From Rhodanobacter sp. (lineage in GTDB: Bacteria; Pseudomonadota; Gammaproteobacteria; Xanthomonadales; Rhodanobacteraceae), in assembly GCA_004298045.1 (NCBI GenBank), contig SCRM01000016.1:62001-126000 (forward strand): 64,000 nucleotides of DNA, given 5' to 3'. Below the pieces are notes generated by a model. It was given only the letters and a program-made list of their open reading frames with translations. It did no database searches and had not been told where the DNA came from. The position numbers and the translations under genes are program-made. Shown here in pieces: positions 5,777 through 23,267 of this stretch (position 1 is the first letter of the stretch; every line of letters begins with the position of its first letter).

Positions 5777-8023
5777 CTAGGCGCAGACCGCCAATGCCCC
5801 GGCGCCGCCGATGTCGAACGTGTTACTGAATACCAGCGCCGGCAGCGGCTGGCTGAACAGATAGCCTTGCCCTTCCTGGCACCCCATCCCGCAGAGGCGA
5901 TCGCGTTGCCGGTTGCTTTCGACCCCCTCGGCGATGACCTCCAGCTCGAAGCTGCGCGCCATGTCCACGATGGCCCGGACCACCGATGCATCCCGGTTCG
6001 AGTCGTGCACGTGCTTGACGAACGAGCGGTCGATCTTCAGCCGGGTCAGCGGGTATTTCCTCAACAGGCTGAGCGAGGCGTAGCCCGTGCCGAAGTCGTC
6101 GAAGGCGATGCCGATGCCGGCCTCCCGCAGCCCCGCCAGCGTATCGAGGATCAGGTCGTCGTCGTCCAGCACGATGTTTTCCGTCACCTCCAGTTCGAGC
6201 GCCGAGGGCGGCAGGCTGTGGCGTTGCAGCACGGCCTGGACGTCGGCGACCAGATCGTTGAGGCGCAGTTGCGCCGCGAACAGGTTCACCCCCATGCGGA
6301 AGTCCGGGGCGCCATGCGCACGCCAGTAGGCCGCCTGCGCGCAGGCCTCGTCCAGCACCCAGGCGCCGACCGCGGCCGCCAGCGACCCGGTTTCCAGCGC
6401 CGGCAGGAAGGCAGCCGGCGACAACAGGCCCCGCTGCGGATGGAGCCAGCGGATCAAGGCTTCGGCTCCCATCAATGCACCATCGCCCAGCCGGATCTGC
6501 GGCTGGTAGAACAGCACGAATTCGCCTGCCCCCACGGCACGGCACAATTCGGTGCCCAGCAGGCGCCGCGCATTGGCTTCCGCGCGCAAGGCGGGCACGA
6601 ACATGCAGGCCTGCCCTCGCCGCTCCTTCTTCGCCTCGTACAGCGCCAGGTCGGCGTCACCCACCAGCTCCAGCGCCTCCAACCCGTTCTCCGCGGTGAT
6701 CGCGATGCCGCAACTCGCCGACACCCGCACCTCGTTTCCATCCACGACGATGGGCTCTGCGATAGCGTCCACGAACCGCTGCGCCAGCTCCACCGCGCGC
6801 TGCTCGCCGGCAACGCCGACCAGCAGGATCGCAAACTCGTCGCCCCCCATTCTCGCCACCAGGTCTCCCGCACCGATGCACAGCTTCAACCGGCGCGCGA
6901 CTTCGCACAGCAGGCCATCGCCGGCGCCATGCCCCAAGGTGTCGTTCACGTCCTTGAAGCCGTTCAGATCCAGCATCACCACAGCCAATGCGCGTGGCTC
7001 CAGCAAGGCCGACTCCATGCGTCGGTAGAGGCCCATGCGGTTGGGCAAGCCGGTAAGCACGTCGGTGCTGGCCAGGCGGTGCAATTCCTCCTGCTTGAGC
7101 AGGCGCGCCGTACGGTCCTGCAAGTGCGCGTTGAACATCATCCGCCCGTCTTCGTTCCAGCAGAACAGCACGATGCCCAGCAAGAACTCGCTGCCGTCCT
7201 TGCGCAGGCCATGGATGCGCTCGGGTATCGACATGCCATCCACCGAACCGGCACGCACGGCGCGTGCGATCAACGCCTTGATCTCCGCCCGATCCGGCTC
7301 CGACAGCAGCGCATCGACCTGGAGTCCGGCGCCCTCCGACGGGTCGTAGCCGAACAGCACGGCCGCGGAATCGTTCCACGCGACGATTCCGCCGCTCCCG
7401 TCGAACCACGCCACCGCGGTCGGTGAATTGCGGGCGAACGTGTCGAACGGCCGCATGGTGTTGGCCGACAGTTCGATACGGCGCAGTTCCAGACGATCCG
7501 ACGCGATCTTCGCCAACTCACGCAGGTACTGGCAGTCGGCGGCGGAGAAATCATGGTGCGGCCGCTGATCGAGCACGCACAGCGCGCCCAGCGGATACCC
7601 CTGCGGTGACAACAACGGTATCCCCGCGTAGAAGCGCAGCCCCGTCGGCCCCGTCACCAGCGGGTTGTCGTGGAAGCGTTCGTCGAGAGTGGCGTCGGGT
7701 ACCACCATCACCCCGTCCTGGGTGATGGTATGTGCGCAGAACGACACACTCCGCCCCATATCCACGCCTTCGCCGCCGGGCTCGATGCCGGAGCTGGCGG
7801 CGAAGAACACATGATCGCTGCCGATCATGTTGACCGCCGCCATCGGCATCCCCAACGAACGCACGGCAAGCTGGACCACGGGATCCAGGCTGGGCAGCGG
7901 ACGATCCTCACCCAATCCGTAATCGGACAGGGCCTTCAGCCGATCGACTTCTCCGGGCAATGCAGACGGGCATTTCACGACCGTATCTCCGGTATTCAAC
8001 CGGCCGCCAGCAACCTGCGCCAT
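5777..8023 (-). CDS. GAF-PAS-GGDEF-EAL cyclic di-GMP signalling protein
   Basis: The 748-residue soluble protein has four modules: a GAF domain (about residues 25-180), a PAS domain (about 190-310), a GGDEF domain with LTGLPNRMGLYRRM and an intact GGDEF loop, and an EAL domain from about 490. In the EAL domain the key elements EALIRW, the VNLF asparagine, ELEVTEN, DDFGTGYASL, KIDRSFV and EVIAEGVE are all present, so phosphodiesterase activity is likely. The GGDEF loop is canonical but lacks an RxxD inhibitory site. It may synthesise c-di-GMP, or use GTP to activate the EAL domain. No signal peptide or membrane segment is seen. ATG 8023 is preferred because GGGGCGAAG lies upstream; the 22 extra codons of the longer frame look spurious. 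Confidence 0.9.
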   Translation of the reverse strand: MAQVAGGRLNTGDTVVKCPSALPGEVDRLKALSDYGLGEDRPLPSLDPVVQLAVRSLGMPMAAVNMIGSDHVFFAASSGIEPGGEGVDMGRSVSFCAHTITQDGVMVVPDATLDERFHDNPLVTGPTGLRFYAGIPLLSPQGYPLGALCVLDQRPHHDFSAADCQYLRELAKIASDRLELRRIELSANTMRPFDTFARNSPTAVAWFDGSGGIVAWNDSAAVLFGYDPSEGAGLQVDALLSEPDRAEIKALIARAVRAGSVDGMSIPERIHGLRKDGSEFLLGIVLFCWNEDGRMMFNAHLQDRTARLLKQEELHRLASTDVLTGLPNRMGLYRRMESALLEPRALAVVMLDLNGFKDVNDTLGHGAGDGLLCEVARRLKLCIGAGDLVARMGGDEFAILLVGVAGEQRAVELAQRFVDAIAEPIVVDGNEVRVSASCGIAITAENGLEALELVGDADLALYEAKKERRGQACMFVPALRAEANARRLLGTELCRAVGAGEFVLFYQPQIRLGDGALMGAEALIRWLHPQRGLLSPAAFLPALETGSLAAAVGAWVLDEACAQAAYWRAHGAPDFRMGVNLFAAQLRLNDLVADVQAVLQRHSLPPSALELEVTENIVLDDDDLILDTLAGLREAGIGIAFDDFGTGYASLSLLRKYPLTRLKIDRSFVKHVHDSNRDASVVRAIVDMARSFELEVIAEGVESNRQRDRLCGMGCQEGQGYLFSQPLPALVFSNTFDIGGAGALAVCA

Positions 8024-8204
8024 GCTTTTTTCTTCGCCCCAACGACTGCGGCCACACCCCGCCGAACGCGAACGCAACACATGGCGCAAAAGATAAGGTA
8101 GAAGGTATCAGAAACCCTTGCAGTCGTGGGAAACGACGACCGGTCAATCGGCAGGGCAGAGGGAATTAGCACGAACGAGACGTAGGGAATTATCTGAATT
8201 TAAT

Positions 8205-8994
8205 TTCCTCCATCCCCGCTTCGGAGCGTTGCCGGACAAGGTGACTATCGAGTGGGTCACGATGGACATGTACCACGTCTACCGGCAAGTCGCTCGCGAA
8301 ACCCTGCCGCAAGCTCGTATCGTGGTTGATCGGTTCCACATCCAGCGTATGGCGAACGAGATGCTGGAAAAGATGCGCAAGCGGTTTCGCAAGACCTTGC
8401 CGGATCGGCGACGGCTCAAGTTGAAGGGCGAGCGCCATCTTTTGCTCAAGCGCCAGCACGAGCTGACGACGGAAGGCTTTGATCGGATGACGGCGTGGCT
8501 CGCGCTTTTTCCCCAGCCAGGTGAGGCCCATGCGTTGAAGGAGGGGCTCATGGCGATCTGGGACAGTCGGGATCGCGCGGCAGCCGAGCAGGCGTAGCAG
8601 CGCTGGCAGGGCAACCTGCCTTTGGAACTTAACGACAGCCGTGACGAACTGGCACGACGAGATCTTCAACTACTTCGAGAATCCCATGACCAACGCCTAC
8701 ACCGAATCAGCCAACAGCCTGACCCGAGTCATGAATCGCATGGGTCGCGGCTACACCTTCGACGTGATCCGTGCCCGCATGTTGTACGACCCTGCGGCGC
8801 GCAAGAAAGGTGCCGTTGTGCAGCAGAAATCGGTTCCCGTGGAAGAGGTGCCGGCGATGCAGAAGACAACGACACGGTATATGACGGTCGACTCTGTCAG
8901 GACGTCTCGTGTGCGTTATACCCATGAGGTCATCGAATACGGTGCCCTCATCCCTACCTTGGAACGGCTGGCGGACGAAGGGCATTTTGATTGA
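8205..8994 (+). pseudogene. ISL3-family transposase, truncated and broken
   Basis: Two frames together give the C-terminal half of an ISL3-type DDE transposase. The first runs VTMDMYHVYRQVARE, ARIVVDRFHIQRMANE and RRRLKLKGERHLLLK, then stops at TAG 8595-8597. The second frame (from about 8629) continues with TNWHDEIFNYFENPMTNAYT and SLTRVMNRMGRGYTFDVIRA to the natural end at 8994. The N-terminal zinc-finger/HTH half is missing. The join lacks a few family residues, so there is at least a 5' truncation, a nonsense codon and a frameshift with a small deletion. It cannot make active transposase. AT-rich sequence at 8170-8205 marks the left junction. Confidence 0.85.
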
Positions 8995-15899: not shown

Positions 15900-18062
15900 T
15901 TAAATGAACCTGATCCCTTTTGTTCGAAAACTGGTTAAGAAATCACGCCTAAGCTGGCTTCCTGTTGGGCAACCGCTCGACGGCGAGCGCCGCCTGGCCC
16001 GCGCTCGCATGTCACGCCAACGTGTGTACTGCGTCTCCTTCGTTGGCGATGGGTCCTCGTAACCCTGCAGCCAGAACCGAAACCAATCAAGGTTCCTTTC
16101 GTACACTGCCAACTTATGCCGCGGCTGAAACTTCTGGTGAGGCTCGTTCGGGAACACGTAGAGGTCAGCCCGATGTTCGCGAATCAGCGGTATCTCGTAG
16201 TCCAACGCATACATGTATTCCTGTTCGGAATGCTGAAAAAGGATTGGCACGTGGATACTGTCCAACTGAAAGGTCGGTGAGATCGCCTTCCAGCGCTTCG
16301 GTGTCTCAGCTAACGATCCCAGCCCCCAGTTCTTTCGCAAGCCCGCAAGGAAGGCTTCGCCCTTCATGCTTCCGATCAAGTCGTAGAGAGGCGACACCAC
16401 CGGGTTGGCGACCGATGCCGCCGCCAGCAAGTCCGATTTCATGACCACCCACATTGTCACTTCCCCACCGAAACTCAGTCCCCCCATCCCCACGCGTTTG
16501 CGATCGATCGCCCCCTTCCTGGACAGCAGGTCGACCACACTCGCTACCGCTGACATCCCATCTCCATAGCGTGCCACTGCGTCTCTCGTGTAACCCGGAC
16601 GCCGGTTGATACACAACGCCGAAATACCGTCCTGTGCCATCGAGGCAAGTGGCCACTCGTCCCCTACCCCACCTCGGATGAAGCCAGGGCAGCTGTAGTA
16701 GGTGACGAATAACGGCGCTGGTCGGCCATCCTCGCGCCGTGCCGGATAGAACTGCCCCGTGTACCACCGTCCTTGTTCGTCCTTCCACCGTAGAAGACGC
16801 ACAGAGACCTTGGTCATGTCGCTGGCGAGCGCCGCATTGGGGTCGAACAGGACATGGCGCCGCCCACTTCCCAGATCGATCCTTTCCAGTCGAGGTGGGC
16901 GGTTGGCCTCTGCCGTCACGCACGCCAAAAACTTGGCCGAGACACCACAGCTTGAAGCCACACGGCGTCCGCCGTTGGCCAATCCCCCGGTTGCTACGAC
17001 GACATCGACCTCACCAGTATCGACATTCCATCGAAGGATCGACTGCCCCAGGCCTTGGCGTGGATCAGTGATGGTAAACAGCACTTCGTCGCGACCAGGG
17101 CGCCACTGAATCTCAGTGATAGCTTTGCCTACGCACAATTCCGACTCGCATTTGACGGCCCTCCTGGCGTGTCCGCCCGGGAGTGCCGACAGCTGCACAC
17201 CAGGGCGGTATTCCTGCCCTTTTCCATTACCAACACGCGTCAGCCAAGCCACTCCGCCGCTTTGGGGGTCGCGCGCGGATTTCCAAGGATCGCCCTCGAC
17301 ACCGGCCTTGGCTGGATCCGATGGTGGTACGGAAGGCACATCCGAACGCTCAAGCGCCCGCTTTGTCCCCGTGGTGAGATCGACCTCCATCCAACGATCT
17401 GGCACATCGGCCAGCAACGGCCCCCGATCGAACCAGTCCCCGCTGAAACGCTGCGTTGCCATGCGCCCCCCGACAAAGCCGGAGCGGAACAATCCTTGGC
17501 CAACCGGTACGGAAGCATCGATATGAACGCCTTGGTCGTATTCGGCCTGCTCCGCCGACCGGACCTCCGCGCGGGTCGCACCGACGCTATACCTGAGGAC
17601 ACGCCCGCCCTGCTCTAGGGCAAAATCGCGCACATCTGCCGCATCATGCGTCAAGGGTTCCGCGCCCGAGCCATCCACCGCCGCACGCCACACGTCAATC
17701 CTTCCGTCGACCAGAGCGCGGAAGTAGATCCAACGATCATCGGGGGACCACACCATCTTCGGAGGCAGCGACTCGCCTGCCGAATCGCGCAGCGGAACGC
17801 CGCCATCGGCGACACGCCTGGGCCAGGGATCATCGAGACCCTGCACATACCAGGCAGTGTCGTAGGTATTGCGCGCCACCGACGCCCGCTCAACCCGGAA
17901 CGCCACGCTGCGCCCATCCGGCGACATCGTCGGACCCGCGATATCGACTACCTCCAGAAGCTGGCGCGGCGAAACAGCAGACGCATGGCAACCAGGCGCA
18001 CAGGCCGCCAGCAGGGCACCCGCAACGAAAAAACGCTGCATGCCGCGCTTCAACACGAACAT
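15900..18062 (-). CDS. Lasso-peptide isopeptidase, AtxE2-type S9 hydrolase
   Basis: The 720-residue exported protein has an N-terminal beta-propeller-like half (SPDGRSVAFRVERASVARNT, then RRVADGGVPLRDSAG and WSPDDRWIYFRALVDGRIDVWRAA in sequence) and a C-terminal alpha/beta hydrolase. The triad is visible as Ser530 in GGLSFGGE, an acid near Glu613/615 in QHSEQEYM and His642 in NEPHQKF, close to the spacing I recall for AtxE2. The family cleaves the isopeptide bond of lasso peptides, releasing a linear peptide for catabolism or signalling. LLAAC in the signal region could be a lipobox. ATG 18062 fits GGGGG upstream. It follows the TonB receptor by 52 bases. The last 30 residues run into repeat sequence and look acquired. 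Confidence 0.82.
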   Translation of the reverse strand: MFVLKRGMQRFFVAGALLAACAPGCHASAVSPRQLLEVVDIAGPTMSPDGRSVAFRVERASVARNTYDTAWYVQGLDDPWPRRVADGGVPLRDSAGESLPPKMVWSPDDRWIYFRALVDGRIDVWRAAVDGSGAEPLTHDAADVRDFALEQGGRVLRYSVGATRAEVRSAEQAEYDQGVHIDASVPVGQGLFRSGFVGGRMATQRFSGDWFDRGPLLADVPDRWMEVDLTTGTKRALERSDVPSVPPSDPAKAGVEGDPWKSARDPQSGGVAWLTRVGNGKGQEYRPGVQLSALPGGHARRAVKCESELCVGKAITEIQWRPGRDEVLFTITDPRQGLGQSILRWNVDTGEVDVVVATGGLANGGRRVASSCGVSAKFLACVTAEANRPPRLERIDLGSGRRHVLFDPNAALASDMTKVSVRLLRWKDEQGRWYTGQFYPARREDGRPAPLFVTYYSCPGFIRGGVGDEWPLASMAQDGISALCINRRPGYTRDAVARYGDGMSAVASVVDLLSRKGAIDRKRVGMGGLSFGGEVTMWVVMKSDLLAAASVANPVVSPLYDLIGSMKGEAFLAGLRKNWGLGSLAETPKRWKAISPTFQLDSIHVPILFQHSEQEYMYALDYEIPLIREHRADLYVFPNEPHQKFQPRHKLAVYERNLDWFRFWLQGYEDPSPTKETQYTRWRDMRARARRRSPSSGCPTGSQLRRDFLTSFRTKGIRFI
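15902..15922 (+). repeat. Dispersed TGAACCTG motif, copy 4
   Basis: AAATGAACCTGATCCCTTTTG overlaps the 3' end of the isopeptidase gene. On the minus strand it encodes the final residues TKGIRFI and the stop, so the reading frame of that gene now ends inside a mobile motif. Confidence 0.45.
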
Positions 18063-18114
18063 GGTTTCCATCCCCCGATCTCGGCGCTATCGGCCCGGCT
18101 CGTCCCGGTGCCCA

Positions 18115-20760
18115 TCACCAATGCTTGGATACGGAGAGGCTCAGGAAGCGACCGACCGCTGAATAGTTGGTCGAGTCGTAAGGCGTATAAGTCAAAGAGG
18201 TAACGACGTACAACGGCGGCGCACGGTTGAACAGATTCTGCGCCGACAACTCCAGTGCCAAGTTTGACCATGCGTCATCGCGCGCACCGGTGTCGTAGCG
18301 AAGCGTGGCGTCGAAGGTGGTAAATGAAGCCCCTTTCCTGCCGTTGGCGACGTTGGTTACTCCGCTTTTGTAGTTTCCGAACAGCGAAGCGGTAAAACCA
18401 CCCTGCTGCCAGACCGCCCCAAGCCTGCTGCTGACCCTCGCCGGGTAGAACAACGTGCCGGCTAGGTCGTAGGGCCTCTGCGCCGCTGTCAAGGATTGTG
18501 TACTGTCCAGCCAGCTGGCTGAACCACGGACCGTCAACTGGCCCAGGCCCAAGCCGACCTGGTACGACCCTGACAGATCGCTCCCTTTGATCCGCTGTCG
18601 GGCCGCATTGAGATACCGCCCATCAATGATTGCTACCACCTTGCCGGCGTCGTAGGGTGAGCCAACGTAGTTGTAGAAGGTGCCGGCGCTTGCAAGCGCC
18701 GCCATTTGCGCGGCCTCGGTCGGGTTGTAATGGACGAAATCCGCGTAGATCGGATTACCGAACACGTCGACGGTATTTATGGGCTTGAGGACGCGCTCTG
18801 TGTAGTCGATATCGAACCACGTCAGCTCCAACTCGAGGCTGGACAACGCCTCCGGATGGAACGCCAGTGAGCCACTCCGTGTTCGAGCCCGCTCAGGACG
18901 AAGGTTTACGTTACCCCCCGCCAGCCACAACGCCGCAGCATCCACGGGATAACCAACGCCGAATGTCGATGCCGGATAGTAGATGGCGGTCCCGGCGGAA
19001 TAGCGCTGCTCGAGCGTGGATGCCTTGAATGACTTCCCCCATGAAGCCTTCAACGAGAAATCGGCGCTGGGCGAGTAGACCACTCCGAACCTGGGCGTGG
19101 TCACCCTTCCATAATCGCCATCTTCCGCACGGACCGCACCTGTCAGCGCAAGCCGCTCGATCCCTCCGACACTTTGCTCCGGTCCCACCAGCGGCAGGTT
19201 CAACTCGGCATAGGCAAAGCGGCTGCTCTCTTCGCCATCGGCCTTGACCGCGTTGCCGCTCAGGTACAGGAAGTCGTTGTACCGATAACCTGCTCCTGCA
19301 GCCAGCCTCGCCTCGCCACCGGGTAACGTGACCAACGGCCCTTCCGCGCCGATCTCGTAAGTCAGGCTTTTGTTCCTATACGTGACGGGGCTGTGCGCGG
19401 TAACCACTCCACTCGCCCTGTTCACCGTCGTGGCAGATACAATGTTCTTTTCTTTCCCCAGCGCACCGCTTAGCGTGAGTGTCCAGTCCCCGGGCAGCCA
19501 TATGTCGAAACTGGGCGCCAGCAGGGTGGTATCGCTCTTTATCTTGGCCGGGCTGTACGTGCTGGCGTACGCCATATCTGTGAGAATGTTCCGCTCGCTC
19601 CTGAGCGCGTCCAGGTGCAGTTCGGTGGAATCTCCCAGCGACTGATGCAAGCTGAGCAAACCGCTGCGAAGATCGTTGCCCTGCCACAGCGTCGAAGGCC
19701 GGTACATCGACTGGGTATAGTCTCGCTGGTCCGAGTAGACCGGATCGTTGGAGGTTTTCTCCCCTGCCACGATGAAGCCGCCGGTGGCCCAAGTCGTTCC
19801 GGCAGTGACGCTGTACTCACGCGTGGTCAGTCCACCCTCGGTGGCACCGCCATATCGCGTGCCCGCCGTCACGCCATCAAAGTCGCGCTTGAGGATCACG
19901 TTGGCCACGCCGCCCACCGCATCGGAGCCATAGATGGCCGACGCACCGTCCGGTACGATTTCGAGGCGCTGCACGGCCTCGACCGGAATTGCGCTGATAT
20001 CGACCGACTGCGCAAAGCCGCCGTACGACATGCGGTGCCCATTGAGCAGGGTGAGAGTCGCATCCGGCCCCAGGCCACGCAGGTTGAGGCCCGAACCCCC
20101 GGTCATGTTCTGGTCGCTGGGTCCACCTTGCGCTGCCCCTGCAGCGACACCCGGGTTCTGACCCCCGGAGAAGTTCTGCGGCACGCTGCGGATCACCTCA
20201 CCAAGGTCCGAGAAACCCTCCTGCTGGATCTGCTTGCTGCTGAGCGTGATGACCGGCGATGGCGTGCTGCCGCCACGGATGCGCGTGCCGGTAACCTGCA
20301 CGCTCGCCATGTTCGTGACGGCTGGCGCCGGGGATGCCGAGCCGGGTGCTGCAGTTGGAGCGGCCTTGGAACCCGTCGCCCTCGCCTGCCCCGCGCCGCG
20401 CCGGATAGCCACGGTCCGGCTGTCGACCAATTCATATTCCAGACCCGACCCGGCGAGCAGCCGGGTCAATGCATCGCGCCAGCCCATGCGGCCCTGGACT
20501 GCCCGCACCGTACGACCCGCGACCAGTTCGGGCGGATAGCGCATCCGCAAGCCGCTTTGCCTGCCCAGCGCATCGAGGGCCGCGGCAAGCTCGCCTGCGG
20601 GAAGATCGAAATCGGTTTTGACCGCCAAGTTGCTCGCCGAAGCGTCGCCCGGTACGACCGCACCGGGCAGTTCCCCCTGCCCCAGAACCGGCAAGGTCGC
20701 GCCGGCGGCAGTGACAAGCAAGGCGATGGAAATGGCGTTGCGTAGCGTACGTGTCTTCAT
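18115..20760 (-). CDS. TonB-dependent receptor with STN domain, putative lasso-peptide transporter
   Basis: The 881-residue outer-membrane protein has a signal peptide (to about residue 28). A secretin/TonB short N-terminal (STN) domain at about 45-122 follows (FDLPAGELAAALDALGRQSG, then VQGRMGWRDALTRLLAGSGL). Then comes a linker, a plug (VQVTGTRIRGG, LNLRGLGPDATLTLLNGHRM, EIVPDGASAIYGSDAVGGVANVI) and a 22-strand barrel ending in an aromatic residue (SVSKHW). Receptors of this type accompany isopeptidase genes in proteobacterial lasso clusters and are thought to import the peptide. An STN domain usually signals to a FecR-type anti-sigma factor, but no FecI/FecR pair is in the window. AGGGGAG upstream supports the ATG. 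It is divergent from the XRE gene at 20972. Confidence 0.88.
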   Translation of the reverse strand: MKTRTLRNAISIALLVTAAGATLPVLGQGELPGAVVPGDASASNLAVKTDFDLPAGELAAALDALGRQSGLRMRYPPELVAGRTVRAVQGRMGWRDALTRLLAGSGLEYELVDSRTVAIRRGAGQARATGSKAAPTAAPGSASPAPAVTNMASVQVTGTRIRGGSTPSPVITLSSKQIQQEGFSDLGEVIRSVPQNFSGGQNPGVAAGAAQGGPSDQNMTGGSGLNLRGLGPDATLTLLNGHRMSYGGFAQSVDISAIPVEAVQRLEIVPDGASAIYGSDAVGGVANVILKRDFDGVTAGTRYGGATEGGLTTREYSVTAGTTWATGGFIVAGEKTSNDPVYSDQRDYTQSMYRPSTLWQGNDLRSGLLSLHQSLGDSTELHLDALRSERNILTDMAYASTYSPAKIKSDTTLLAPSFDIWLPGDWTLTLSGALGKEKNIVSATTVNRASGVVTAHSPVTYRNKSLTYEIGAEGPLVTLPGGEARLAAGAGYRYNDFLYLSGNAVKADGEESSRFAYAELNLPLVGPEQSVGGIERLALTGAVRAEDGDYGRVTTPRFGVVYSPSADFSLKASWGKSFKASTLEQRYSAGTAIYYPASTFGVGYPVDAAALWLAGGNVNLRPERARTRSGSLAFHPEALSSLELELTWFDIDYTERVLKPINTVDVFGNPIYADFVHYNPTEAAQMAALASAGTFYNYVGSPYDAGKVVAIIDGRYLNAARQRIKGSDLSGSYQVGLGLGQLTVRGSASWLDSTQSLTAAQRPYDLAGTLFYPARVSSRLGAVWQQGGFTASLFGNYKSGVTNVANGRKGASFTTFDATLRYDTGARDDAWSNLALELSAQNLFNRAPPLYVVTSLTYTPYDSTNYSAVGRFLSLSVSKHW

Positions 20761-20880: not shown

Positions 20881-20909
20881 TTGCAGCCTCATCGCCACAA
20901 CCGTATGTA
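20881..20909 (+). promoter_or_regulatory. Possible promoter of the first XRE gene
   Basis: TTGCAG (20881-20886) and TATGTA (20904-20909) are spaced by 17 bases and resemble -35 and -10 elements. They lie directly upstream of the phased repeats. The AT-rich stretch could also serve the divergent receptor gene. Confidence 0.35.
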
Positions 20910-20917
20910 TACTATAC

Positions 20918-20955
20918 ACAGTAGATGAATATTCTGTAGATTGCAAGACGGTAGA
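20918..20955 (+). promoter_or_regulatory. Phased triple direct repeat (operator-like) before XRE gene 1
   Basis: Three octamers ACAGTAGA (20918), TCTGTAGA (20933) and ACGGTAGA (20948) start exactly 15 bases apart. The same three octamers in the same order and spacing occur before the second XRE gene at 21424. This strongly suggests a binding site array for one of the two regulators. Confidence 0.65.
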
Positions 20956-20971
20956 GGAAGAGTCTTGGCGT

Positions 20972-21223
20972 ATGTCCGCCAAGTCCTTGCAATCGCTTCC
21001 GTCAAGCAGCCGCGCTTACGTGGCGGCGAACGTTCGTCGGCACCGCAAGGCCATGGGCCTGAGCCAGGAGAAACTTGGGGAGCTTGCGGAGCTGCATCGC
21101 ACCTACGTATCGCAGCTCGAGTGCCGCAGGGCCAACATCTCGATCGACAGTTTGGAACGGATCGCCCTGATTCTGGGCGTGGACACCGCCCAACTGCTTC
21201 GCCCCCCTGAGGAGGAGGCCTAG
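20972..21223 (+). CDS. XRE-family transcriptional regulator 1
   Basis: This 83-residue protein is almost entirely one HTH_3/Cro-C1 domain. NVRRHRKAMGLSQEKLGELA begins it, LHRTYVSQLECRRANISIDS is the recognition and turn region, and LERIALILGVDTAQLLRP ends it. Such solo HTH proteins are DNA-binding repressors or activators, often autoregulated. It is about 60% identical by eye to the second XRE gene 254 bases downstream, so the two are tandem paralogues. It is divergent from the lasso-type receptor gene and may control it. GAGGAAGAG about ten bases upstream is a plausible ribosome binding site. Confidence 0.85.
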   Translation: MSAKSLQSLPSSSRAYVAANVRRHRKAMGLSQEKLGELAELHRTYVSQLECRRANISIDSLERIALILGVDTAQLLRPPEEEA

Positions 21224-21423
21224 CGGCGGCCGAGGGTCGCTACTTGGCGCATCAACGCTTCTGGGAATCAGGGCGGGGGAGCAGGTGAAGGACGTGCACC
21301 ATTCCTGGCAGCGACGCGGCGCACCGGAATTGGGCGCTCAAATGGAGCGACACCAACTTGCGTATGTGGTGCGAAACCCAGGGAATCCGCATCCATCCAG
21401 CCGGCACCGGGTACAGTGTAGAA

Positions 21424-21461
21424 ACAGTAGATTCTTACTCTGTAGAACGTTAGACGGTAGA
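21424..21461 (+). promoter_or_regulatory. Phased triple direct repeat (operator-like) before XRE gene 2
   Basis: ACAGTAGA (21424), TCTGTAGA (21439) and ACGGTAGA (21454) repeat the arrangement found at 20918-20955, again with an exact 15-base period. The spacers between them differ between the two arrays (TTCTTAC and ACGTTAG here). Confidence 0.65.
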
Positions 21462-21476
21462 TGGTCAGGCTGGGGC

Positions 21477-21719
21477 ATGCCTTCGAAGCCCTCACCACGA
21501 TCCCTGCCAAGAGCACGCGCCCGCGCTGCCGCAAATATCCGTCGCCTGCGCACAGCCAAGGGATTGAGCCAAGAACAACTGGCCGAAGCGGCACAGTTCC
21601 ACCGTACCTACGTCTCGCAACTCGAACGCAGCGTCACCAATATCTCCATCGACGGCCTCGAGCGACTGGCTCAGGCGCTGGGAGTAGACATCGTTGAGTT
21701 GCTGCAGCCTTCGGCGTGA
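21477..21719 (+). CDS. XRE-family transcriptional regulator 2
   Basis: The 80-residue protein has one Cro-C1 type helix-turn-helix: NIRRLRTAKGLSQEQLAEAA, then FHRTYVSQLERSVTNISIDG, then LERLAQALGVDIVELLQP. It is a tandem paralogue of the regulator at 20972. The start at ATG 21477 fits GGGG just upstream; the longer open frame would run through the conserved operator repeats and is rejected. Sharing the same operator-like array suggests auto- or cross-regulation of the two paralogues. A REP-like repeat follows 50 bases after the stop. Confidence 0.85.
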   Translation: MPSKPSPRSLPRARARAAANIRRLRTAKGLSQEQLAEAAQFHRTYVSQLERSVTNISIDGLERLAQALGVDIVELLQPSA

Positions 21720-21769
21720 GGGAAGGCTCTAGCCGGACTTGCTTGAGGCCAATTTGCCCAGAGAACGCC

Positions 21770-21854
21770 ATTCCCGCGAAAGCGGGAATCCCGTCTGACC
21801 CAAGCTTTCCGGACAAGACCAAGGACGCTGGATCCCCGCTTTCGTGAGGATGAC
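21770..21854. repeat. REP-like pair of inverted repeats
   Basis: ATTCCCGC (21770-21777) and GCGGGAAT (21782-21789) form a perfect stem with a GAAA loop. About 40 bases later a second, imperfect stem ATCCCCGC...GTGAGGAT (21832-21851) follows. This is the layout of intergenic REP pairs common in high-GC gammaproteobacteria. Confidence 0.55.
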
Positions 21855-22109
21855 TGCGGAATGGTGACCGGCGCAATTCTCGTGCTGCATGGAACGCAGC
21901 GGCGTGTGGTCAATGACAAGACGGGCAACCCCTCTTCGGCGTGGCCCCTCCATGCCAGGCTAGTTGTCGCTTCCATTGATGGCTTATCTTCCGGAAGGCG
22001 GCAGCGAGAGAGACGATAAAGCGATTCGATACACCGCCGAGCAGCGGCAGGCCGCCGTGGCGCAAATGGGGCCTCCGCACGCTGATCAAGCCCGTCGATG
22101 CAGCAGATA

Positions 22110-22300
22110 CACCGGAAGCGAGGGGGCGGCCTAACGGGGTCACCGACGCGCGCGGCGACAAACTGCCCGCCCCAGGCCAGACACCGCTCGACCTTCGCAT
22201 CCGCTCCAGCGTTCCATCTCGCCAGCAGCAGCCGTCCGTAGGTTTTGAAATTGCCGCCGTCGCGATACATGTACTCAAAAATGCTGGCCCGCCCGCGCAT
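22110..22300 (-). pseudogene. Start of a small hypothetical gene, apparently decayed
   Basis: On the minus strand a strong site AAGGAG seven bases before ATG 22300 leads into MRGRASIFEYMYRDGGNFKT and GQFVAARVGDPV. This recalls a family of about 80-residue proteins beginning FxYxYRDxxNxK, whose function I do not know. After about 55 residues the sequence becomes low quality and the open frame runs on through the REP repeat and the opposite XRE gene to 21671. I therefore read it as a frameshifted or truncated gene. Bases 21855-22110 hold nothing else recognisable. Confidence 0.4.
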
Positions 22301-22415
22301 TCCCGTCTCCTTCTTCTGCGCACCAGACGGTAGCGGCGCAACGTCTCACCGATGGCGATTCACGGGTAAGGTCGCGGGCGTTACCCTGGTCGCCGCCCGA
22401 GGGGGAACTGGAACC

Positions 22416-23267
22416 ATGGCGGAACGAACCGATTGGAGCCGTGAGGAAGTCGAGGCCTGCGTCGCAGACTACCTCCGGATGTTGACGCTCGAACTCAACG
22501 GCCAGCGGTACAACAAGACCGACCACGCCAACGCGTTGTTGAAGCTGCTCAACGGCCGCAATCGCGCATCCATCGAATTCAAGCACGCCAACATCAGCGC
22601 CGTGATGGTCGCGCTCGGCTATCCCTACATCGACGGATACAAGCCGCGCAGCAACTACCAGGCGCTACTGATCGACGCCGTCGAGGCGCAACTCGTCACG
22701 AACGGTGAAGTGCAGGTCGCAGTGGAGGCAGCCGTCACCCGACCGGCGACCGCCGTGCCCGTGGCCGATCCACAGAACATCTGGGTACCGACCCCGAGGC
22801 CCACCCACGTCCACGAAGCGCCCGCAAGCTACGTCGCACGTTTCTCTCCCGCCAAGCGCGACTACCTCGCCCAAGAGGCAAGGAACCGCTCGCTCGGCCG
22901 CGCCGGCGAACAGTTCGTCGTGGAGCTGGAAGCCCGCCGCCTGCACGCGGCCGGCAAGAAGAAGCTCGCAAACCGCGTGGAACACGTCGCAAGCACCCAA
23001 GGCGACGGCTTGGGTTACGACGTGCTGTCATTCGAGGACAACGGCCGCGAACGTCTGATCGAGGTGAAGACCACGGCATTCGGCCAGCTCACCCCGTTCT
23101 ACGTCAGCCGAAACGAGCTCGCCCGCTCCAACGCCGACCCCGAAATCTACCGGCTGTACCGGCTATTCGACTTCCGCGACCGCCCGAGACTCTTCCACCT
23201 GCCGGGCGCGATTGATGCGTCGTGCGATCTGGAGCCGGCGTCCTATCTGGCAAGGCTGGCGGGTTGA
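22416..23267 (+). CDS. DUF3883 (NOV-like) protein with a PD-(D/E)xK nuclease signature
   Basis: The 283-residue protein has two parts. The N-terminal 95 residues (REEVEACVADYLRMLTLELN, then KTDHANALLKLLNGRNRASI and FKHANISAVMVALGYPYIDG) form a domain I have seen attached to HNH or DUF3883 modules. The C-terminal part fits DUF3883: GRAGEQFVVELE with Glu165, then QGDGLGYDVLSF with Asp202 and RLIEVKTT with Glu216 and Lys218. That is a restriction-endonuclease-like E/D-ExK site. Such proteins occur near restriction and defence genes. GAGGGGG lies about ten bases upstream of ATG 22416. DNA cleavage is an inference from motif geometry. Confidence 0.75.
   Translation: MAERTDWSREEVEACVADYLRMLTLELNGQRYNKTDHANALLKLLNGRNRASIEFKHANISAVMVALGYPYIDGYKPRSNYQALLIDAVEAQLVTNGEVQVAVEAAVTRPATAVPVADPQNIWVPTPRPTHVHEAPASYVARFSPAKRDYLAQEARNRSLGRAGEQFVVELEARRLHAAGKKKLANRVEHVASTQGDGLGYDVLSFEDNGRERLIEVKTTAFGQLTPFYVSRNELARSNADPEIYRLYRLFDFRDRPRLFHLPGAIDASCDLEPASYLARLAG

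Follow-up and report, generated by a model that had tools for sequence, protein, structure and literature searches.

Why do two short arrays of the same box stand directly in front of two genes for small XRE-type regulators, beside the receptor gene of a lasso peptide locus, and which proteins would read them? The window, meaning the whole stretch of 64,000 nucleotides from Rhodanobacter sp. that was analysed here (contig SCRM01000016.1, positions 62,001 to 126,000), had previously been described in a first-pass annotation as carrying the octamers ACAGTAGA, TCTGTAGA and ACGGTAGA twice, in one order and with an exact 15-base step. We found the octamers exactly so, on the plus strand at 20918/20933/20948 and at 21424/21439/21454. 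When up to 2 mismatches were allowed, GTAGA-N10-GTAGA-N10-GTAGA matched the window twice, both times exactly, as compared with no match in 100 dinucleotide shuffles. The scan for further arrays that the annotation had proposed was run on the own genome (3.26 Mb in 22 contigs) and returned three successive exact CNGTAGA boxes at these two places only, and a refined two-unit pattern was likewise confined to the two arrays at zero mismatches. Array 1 consists of three tandem 15-bp putative operator units (20921..20964, plus strand; unit starts 20921, 20936 and 20951), each GTAGANNNNNANNC, and lies 5' of XRE1 (20972..21223, plus strand), which encodes a controller-protein-like HTH regulator of 83 aa. 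Array 2, also of three such units (21427..21470, plus strand; unit starts 21427, 21442 and 21457), precedes XRE2 (21477..21719, plus strand), encoding a regulator of the same kind with 80 aa and 55% identity to the XRE1 protein (alignment A1). The last GTAGA is separated from the ATG by 16 bases for XRE1 and 15 bases for XRE2. An extra GTAGA at 21418..21422 (plus strand), 9 bp 5' of the first box of array 2, is off the 15-bp phase.

Array 1 begins 158 bp ahead of the start codon of a divergently oriented gene for a TonB-dependent receptor with plug, barrel and STN domains (18115..20760, minus strand), which is followed by a gene for a lasso peptide isopeptidase of the Atxe2 family (15900..18071, minus strand; NF033523, 655 bits at a cut-off of 400). 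Lasso clusters of the astexin kind comprise a precursor A, a protease B, a cyclase C, an isopeptidase and a TonB receptor. No match to Transglut_core3, the family of lasso protein B, was obtained in the own genome (95.9% complete), and none to lasso B or C within the window, whereas each of the two was found in 57 of the 67 other isopeptidase loci described below. Neither B nor C was present in 11 of 68 sources (the 67 loci plus the window, many of the loci lying in partial DNA), ten of which are other loci. The window thus carries the uptake part of a lasso cluster but not the part for synthesis, i.e., an orphan uptake module. Restriction-modification genes were also absent from the window, the neighbours being the TonB receptor, the isopeptidase and, 3' of XRE2, a protein with a NO VEIN C-terminal domain (NOV_C; 22245-23264) that matches the candidate defence family PDC-S36 with an E value of 3e-113. 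Between XRE2 and this gene, at 21766-21860, there is an inverted-repeat element composed of CCCGCGAAAGCGGG and a related CCCGCTTTCGTGAGG copy, which resembles a dispersed repeat.

We searched for the arrays in relatives by two routes. The family search covered 233 genomes with at most one mismatch; among the matches listed, 12 genomes had exact matches, of which 10 carry this kind of array (G085 and G135 were left out). Among the same listed matches, seven relatives have exact triples in pairs, about 320-540 bp from each other, and two relatives have a single one. All arrays of at least three boxes in the stretches around the family-search matches are located immediately 5' of an XRE gene, and the TonB receptor and isopeptidase adjoin the array in eight of nine relatives' loci, the ninth (L044 of genome G195) having neither. 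In those eight loci, the lasso B gene lies beyond the receptor and isopeptidase, on their far side. The second route started from an alignment of the isopeptidase and scanned one genome per species from 84,980 species, which gave 67 loci. Relatives of the XRE proteins (tblastn, E 1e-6) were found in nine of these loci, and all nine have arrays of at least three exact boxes; no such array was seen in the 58 isopeptidase loci without these XRE genes, where four loci have stray two-box pairs. The nine loci were reached via the isopeptidase and hence were not picked by the box. Five were already known and four are new, all four from Lysobacteraceae and three of them from Luteimonas. Altogether, 26 arrays, each directly 5' of an XRE gene, were collected from 14 distinct loci in Rhodanobacteraceae and Lysobacteraceae. 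The TonB receptor and an Atxe2-type isopeptidase adjoin 13 of the 14 loci. In 12 of the 14, two XRE genes have arrays, as compared with one gene in L038 and in L044.

Wider samples were also scanned. An exact triple was present in 17 of 398 genomes of an order-wide sample, seven of which have this kind of array; the other ten matches are simple or coding repeats as judged by sequence alone. In a class-wide sample, 3 of 369 genomes matched, namely that of the window and two with simple tandem repeats whose spacers are nearly identical (G759 and G848). A pattern scan of viral contigs gave at least 120 matching stretches. Within the lasso loci themselves, eight stretches 5' of lasso B (L046-L053) contained no pair of exact boxes and only scattered single sites with one mismatch. 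No arrays were seen at lasso precursor promoters, a statement that covers L046 and L053 at best, where the only precursors were recognised. Locus L043 has a reversed two-box pair facing the TonB gene, each box being one mismatch from the unit, which was left out of the counts.

To define the repeat, the 26 arrays from the 14 loci were aligned on their last box, and the last three units were pooled to give 78 units. The conserved unit is GTAGANNNNNANNC, repeated every 15 bp in the 26 arrays. The invariance of GTAGA and the 2.00 bits of information in the boxes simply follow from the selection of arrays by GTAGA. A at position 11 (77/78 units) and C at position 14 (78/78) were used nowhere in finding the arrays, and both also follow the last box, after which no further GTAGA comes, showing that the unit is GTAGANNNNNANNC. 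The octamer regarded as the unit by the first-pass annotation is therefore too short: the conserved unit is longer and extends into what had been taken as the spacer. Information in the spacers of the three units amounts to 1.09, 1.41 and 1.44 bits, as compared with 0.22-0.35 bits in the 45 bases 5' of the first unit, and the conservation within the second of four units is due to a -10-like TATAnT at positions 8-13. The opposite pattern, in which octamers vary and spacers are kept, was not found in the aligned relatives; the spacers are partly conserved too. The base ahead of the box is fixed by its place, the second box being preceded by A and the third by T in all 26 arrays, which accounts for the related octamers that had been seen in a single order. 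Three exact boxes occur in 14 arrays and four in the remaining 12, the fourth lying 15 bp further upstream, and the last box stands 15-17 bases from the ATG in every array. The place of the fourth box is degenerate in both window arrays; in array 1, it is occupied by TGTATACTATACACA (20906..20920, plus strand). The absence of a fourth exact box from array 2 is nothing special, because 6 of 14 X2 arrays, those preceding the second gene, lack one.

The proteins encoded behind the arrays resemble the controller (C) proteins of restriction-modification systems. The PADLOC Control_protein model PDLC03665 matches all 26 XRE proteins (18/18 rows of alignment A1 and 8/8 from Lysobacteraceae), with E values of 1.4e-20 and 4.1e-17 for the window pair, and it was the best match in all ten tables viewed (the window pair and the eight from Lysobacteraceae). 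Since PADLOC-DB contains few general XRE families, a best match there says little alone, and controls were run. One HTH_3 regulator, the only valid control, was matched by no Control_protein model; two further intended XRE controls matched no HTH family and so are not valid as controls. An AlphaFold model of the XRE protein had a pLDDT of 86.7, and the solved fold nearest to it was that of NHTF from Neisseria, with C.BclI, C.AhdI, SinR, ClgR and C.Esp1396I then among the best. R35, T36 and R46 are the base-contacting residues of C.Esp1396I, of which T36 is described as essential (PMC4041747). The residue equivalent to T36 is invariant in the 26 XRE proteins; the R35 place has R in 22 of them (HRTY) and P in four (HPTY), namely X1 of L037, L039, L040 and L043, and at the place of R46 there is T or A. 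We consider it probable that the arrays are C-box-type operators in tandem and that the two small regulators XRE1 and XRE2 are relatives of the restriction-modification C proteins. The XRE proteins are predicted, and likely, to bind the arrays.

The classic C-protein system has a protein of about 80 aa with a single HTH and two operators, OL and OR. C-box operators are described with a central GT between them (PMC4824078). When a C-box is laid on the unit, GT falls on positions 1-2, GACT on 4-7, tat on 8-10 and AGTC on 11-14, and GT, GA, A and C coincide with the invariant bases. Positions 6-14 matched the C-box consensus at 4.54 of 9, the next best register reaching 3.38; permuted consensus sequences gave a mean of 2.3, and 2 of 2000 attained 4.54. 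The match differs by unit, with 6.58 of 9 in the second and only 3.50 and 3.54 in the last two, and the TATA of the -10 may contribute to that of the second. The palindrome is worn, GA and A..C being the sole invariant bases within GACT and AGTC.

The annotation had also called the 15-base step unusual for a repressor array, which was not supported: two true C genes show a 15-bp step by eye. These came from a search of plasmid records with the XRE2 protein, which returned 37 records, of which 14 were fetched. The relatives in Saccharobesus and Dyadobacter precede a restriction enzyme gene with a methyltransferase gene nearby and therefore look like true C genes; upstream of them stand ACTTATAGTCTGTAGACTGATAGTC and ATCTTTAGTATGTAGATCGATAGTTAGC, in each of which a pair of C-boxes at a 15-bp step, on either side of a GTAGA, can be recognised by eye. 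The upstream DNA of a Methylibium relative looks alike by eye. A blind lag test was weak. Of the 14 plasmid relatives, only three had 15 as their best lag, one of them (L284) probably through chance; for the two true C genes, shuffling gave frequencies of 0.033 and 0.063. The likeness to C-boxes thus rests on the match to the known consensus and not on the lag statistic. Two adjacent dimers of C.Esp1396I are described in contact on the operator pair (PMC4041747), and for C.Csp231I the operators are given as about 18 bp apart (PMC3115060), so the operator spacing varies among C proteins. By analogy, the 15-bp step is probably an ordinary spacing of neighbouring C-protein dimers. Five rhizobial plasmid relatives (L277, L279, L283, L287 and L289) lie beside TraM and an autoinducer-binding regulator and have AATACTC-like repeats 15 bp apart, and AATACTC-like repeats at 15 bp also occur at a Phyllobacterium relative.

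Two other accounts of the arrays deal with the repeats as such. One makes them a plain tandem repeat of a 15-mer, or the by-product of a promoter-gene unit having been duplicated recently, as two similar promoter-gene units in tandem might suggest at first sight. We regard it as scarcely credible. A single branch separates the X1 and X2 proteins in both families, with 86/94 support (86% of bootstrap trees) in a tree of XRE proteins where strong support is found on only 5 of 23 inner branches. Because the X1/X2 split spans two families and both retain the array, recent copying does not explain the arrays, and the earlier proposal that selection rather than recent duplication preserves the boxes stands; judged from the tree, the arrays seem older than the divergence of the two XRE genes. 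The spacers, moreover, vary from unit to unit, whereas those of the genuine 15-mer tandem repeats in G759 and G848 are almost identical. The other account treats the boxes as direct-repeat sites for single subunits instead of dimer operators, as has been put forward for HsdC of mycoplasmas, the 15-bp step reflecting head-to-tail packing. GTAGA is indeed repeated in a single orientation, each unit is weak in its second half, and HsdC, a C protein, is reported to bind the direct repeats (GTGTTAN5)2, with (AACGAATN12)3 in acholeplasmas (PMC5282649). Against such packing, A11 and C14 sit at the second half of the C-box and persist beyond the last box, where no GTAGA follows, unit B frequently shows AGA-N7-TCT, and the two true C genes have near-palindromes at an equal step. 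We thus hold single-subunit sites to be unlikely and keep to dimer operators in what follows.

Each 15-bp unit would take up one dimer of XRE1 or XRE2, with GTAGA on one side and A..C on the other, and adjoining dimers would touch as in the tetramers of C proteins. The position of the units relative to the promoter points to the likely effect. In array 1, a -10-like hexamer AATATT, assigned by consensus match, lies in the first unit (20928..20933, plus strand), and the relatives mostly have AATAAT, TATATT or TATAAT at this place. The -10-like hexamers in the second of four units agree with TATAAT at 4.75 and 4.86 of 6 bases on average, and the rightward -35 is poor (2.67 and 2.21 of 6). The corresponding -10 place of array 2 (21434..21439, plus strand) reads CTTACT, where 11 of 14 X2 arrays have TATANT; Luteimonas abyssi has CTTAAT at the -10 place of its X2 array. 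The XRE1 branch (0.31) is longer than those of near relatives. One may guess that the arrays of the window became worn after the lasso synthesis genes had been lost. Should this -10 in the second of four units be genuine, four units would reach from about -34 to +25 and so take in the -35 place and the -10 as well as the start and the leader; once filled, they would shut the XRE promoters, resulting in cooperative negative auto- and cross-regulation. Because the sites cover the likely promoter, we infer cooperative autoregulation, with repression as its probable sign. Cross-regulation between XRE1 and XRE2 is likely in view of the one unit common to both arrays and the recognition helix shared by most of the proteins. 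Array 1 may in addition govern how strongly the divergent genes for the TonB receptor and the isopeptidase are expressed. A leftward promoter-like pair, TCTACA-18-TATAGT, assigned by consensus match, points from array 1 toward the TonB gene (20911..20940, minus strand). Similar leftward hexamers are found in the array 2 relatives, which have no such target (mean 4.42 versus 4.00 matches), so control of the receptor by array 1 is only plausible.

A repressive mode is not the sole precedent among C proteins, and the neighbourhood invites a different reading of the pair altogether. Like C.Esp1396I, the regulators could act as activators of their own promoters at low dose and as repressors at high dose, which would make a switch instead of simple repression. 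The poor rightward -35, with box 1 at the -35 place, would suit this mode, and C.Esp1396I is described as activating from its distal operator by recruiting sigma (PMC4041747). Provided that the -10 in the second of four units is genuine, however, the sites here lie on the promoter and downstream of it, not upstream, and we take such a dual switch to be conceivable but doubtful. C.Kpn2I is described as blocking elongation from a site inside its own gene (PMC6237814). By analogy, activation as with C.Esp1396I or an elongation block as with C.Kpn2I is possible at the XRE arrays. The XRE pair might, on the other hand, belong to a neighbouring defence island and stand beside the lasso receptor by chance. 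In addition to the PDC-S36 (NOV_C) gene downstream in the window, L039 (3458-7791) has a Type III methyltransferase 3' of XRE2, along with a weak match for Type III restriction, and L037 (13762-17727) has PDC-M55 proteins there, downstream defence genes having been tested in three relatives. The downstream genes, however, vary by locus, while the TonB receptor and isopeptidase adjoin the XRE genes in 9 of 10 array-found loci, with L044 as the exception, a count that omits the four loci found through the isopeptidase. Chance placement beside the receptor is therefore quite improbable in our judgement, and the XRE locus may border a defence hot spot.

With repression by C-protein-like dimers as the preferred reading, the locus can be set beside known systems. 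C proteins of the C.PvuII and C.Esp1396I kind share with it the small single-domain HTH fold, the control-protein profile, the (here putative) tandem operators before the own gene and the central GT, and the 15-bp step is that of the two C genes found among the plasmid relatives. Unlike classic C-boxes with their two operators, the arrays have three to four exact boxes, their sites run over and past the likely promoter, and the palindrome is worn. In contrast to C-protein systems, there are mostly two paralogues in tandem, adjoining a lasso receptor, and the window has no restriction-modification genes. HsdC of Mollicutes is likewise a C-protein relative with direct repeats in its own promoter, in three copies in acholeplasmas, but its repeats are GTGTTA at 11 bp or AACGAAT at 19 bp, and in M. 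gallisepticum it belongs to a Type I restriction system, as described in PMC5282649. RptR is reported to repress its own promoter through three direct repeats overlapping the -10, which resembles the arrangement here; it differs in its TAGCTA motif in 9-bp repeats, its own fold without a close structural match and its location in a Type I restriction-modification island (PMC12255303). Other lasso loci have the same pair of TonB receptor and isopeptidase with other regulators, either FecI/FecR or a single divergent XRE. Of 18 other loci, from which 20 proteins were tested, five (L084, L087, L127, L130 and L140) proved to have FecR or ECF sigma genes, and a different single XRE gene lies upstream of the TonB gene in 30 of 67 loci (31 have a match, that of L115 being far off). 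All eight single XRE genes inspected stand behind what is by eye an ordinary palindrome, for example CTACGTTTAACGTAG and GCTACATTTAATGTAGC. Another Control_protein model, PDLC03667, is the best match for seven of these eight (L085, L108, L113, L116, L133, L135 and L142), and C-protein-like regulators may accordingly prove common at lasso receptor/isopeptidase loci.

Among these loci, XRE pairs with direct-repeat arrays form a class of their own. What is new here is the presence of three or four operators instead of two, the paralogues in a row and the lasso-receptor setting. The conservation of the arrays and their resemblance to C-protein sites suggest that this type of switch was taken over for the uptake of a peptide. 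A bolder version, to which we give little credence, is that controller proteins were taken over as a co-inherited pair with C-box arrays of three to four operators and now run a cell-fate-like switch of lasso uptake. Two cross-binding regulators would then set the receptor and isopeptidase either on or off in each cell, and some strains like this one would have kept the switch after losing the peptide synthesis genes, living off the peptides of their neighbours. Our literature search, for which subscription papers were mostly out of range, found nothing linking lasso peptide TonB/isopeptidase loci to XRE or helix-turn-helix regulators, and the regulation of proteobacterial lasso receptor/isopeptidase loci seems scarcely described. 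The arrays name the likely regulators together with their sites, making this regulation testable with two small proteins and two short DNAs. They also offer an example of a restriction-modification-type regulator in a different setting and a natural operator series, with two operators in classic systems and three and four here, for following how cooperativity rises with the number of sites. Apart from the arrays, two more lasso isopeptidases were noticed about 5 kb apart on another contig of genome G168 (G168:C54:281-2239 and 7055-8968).
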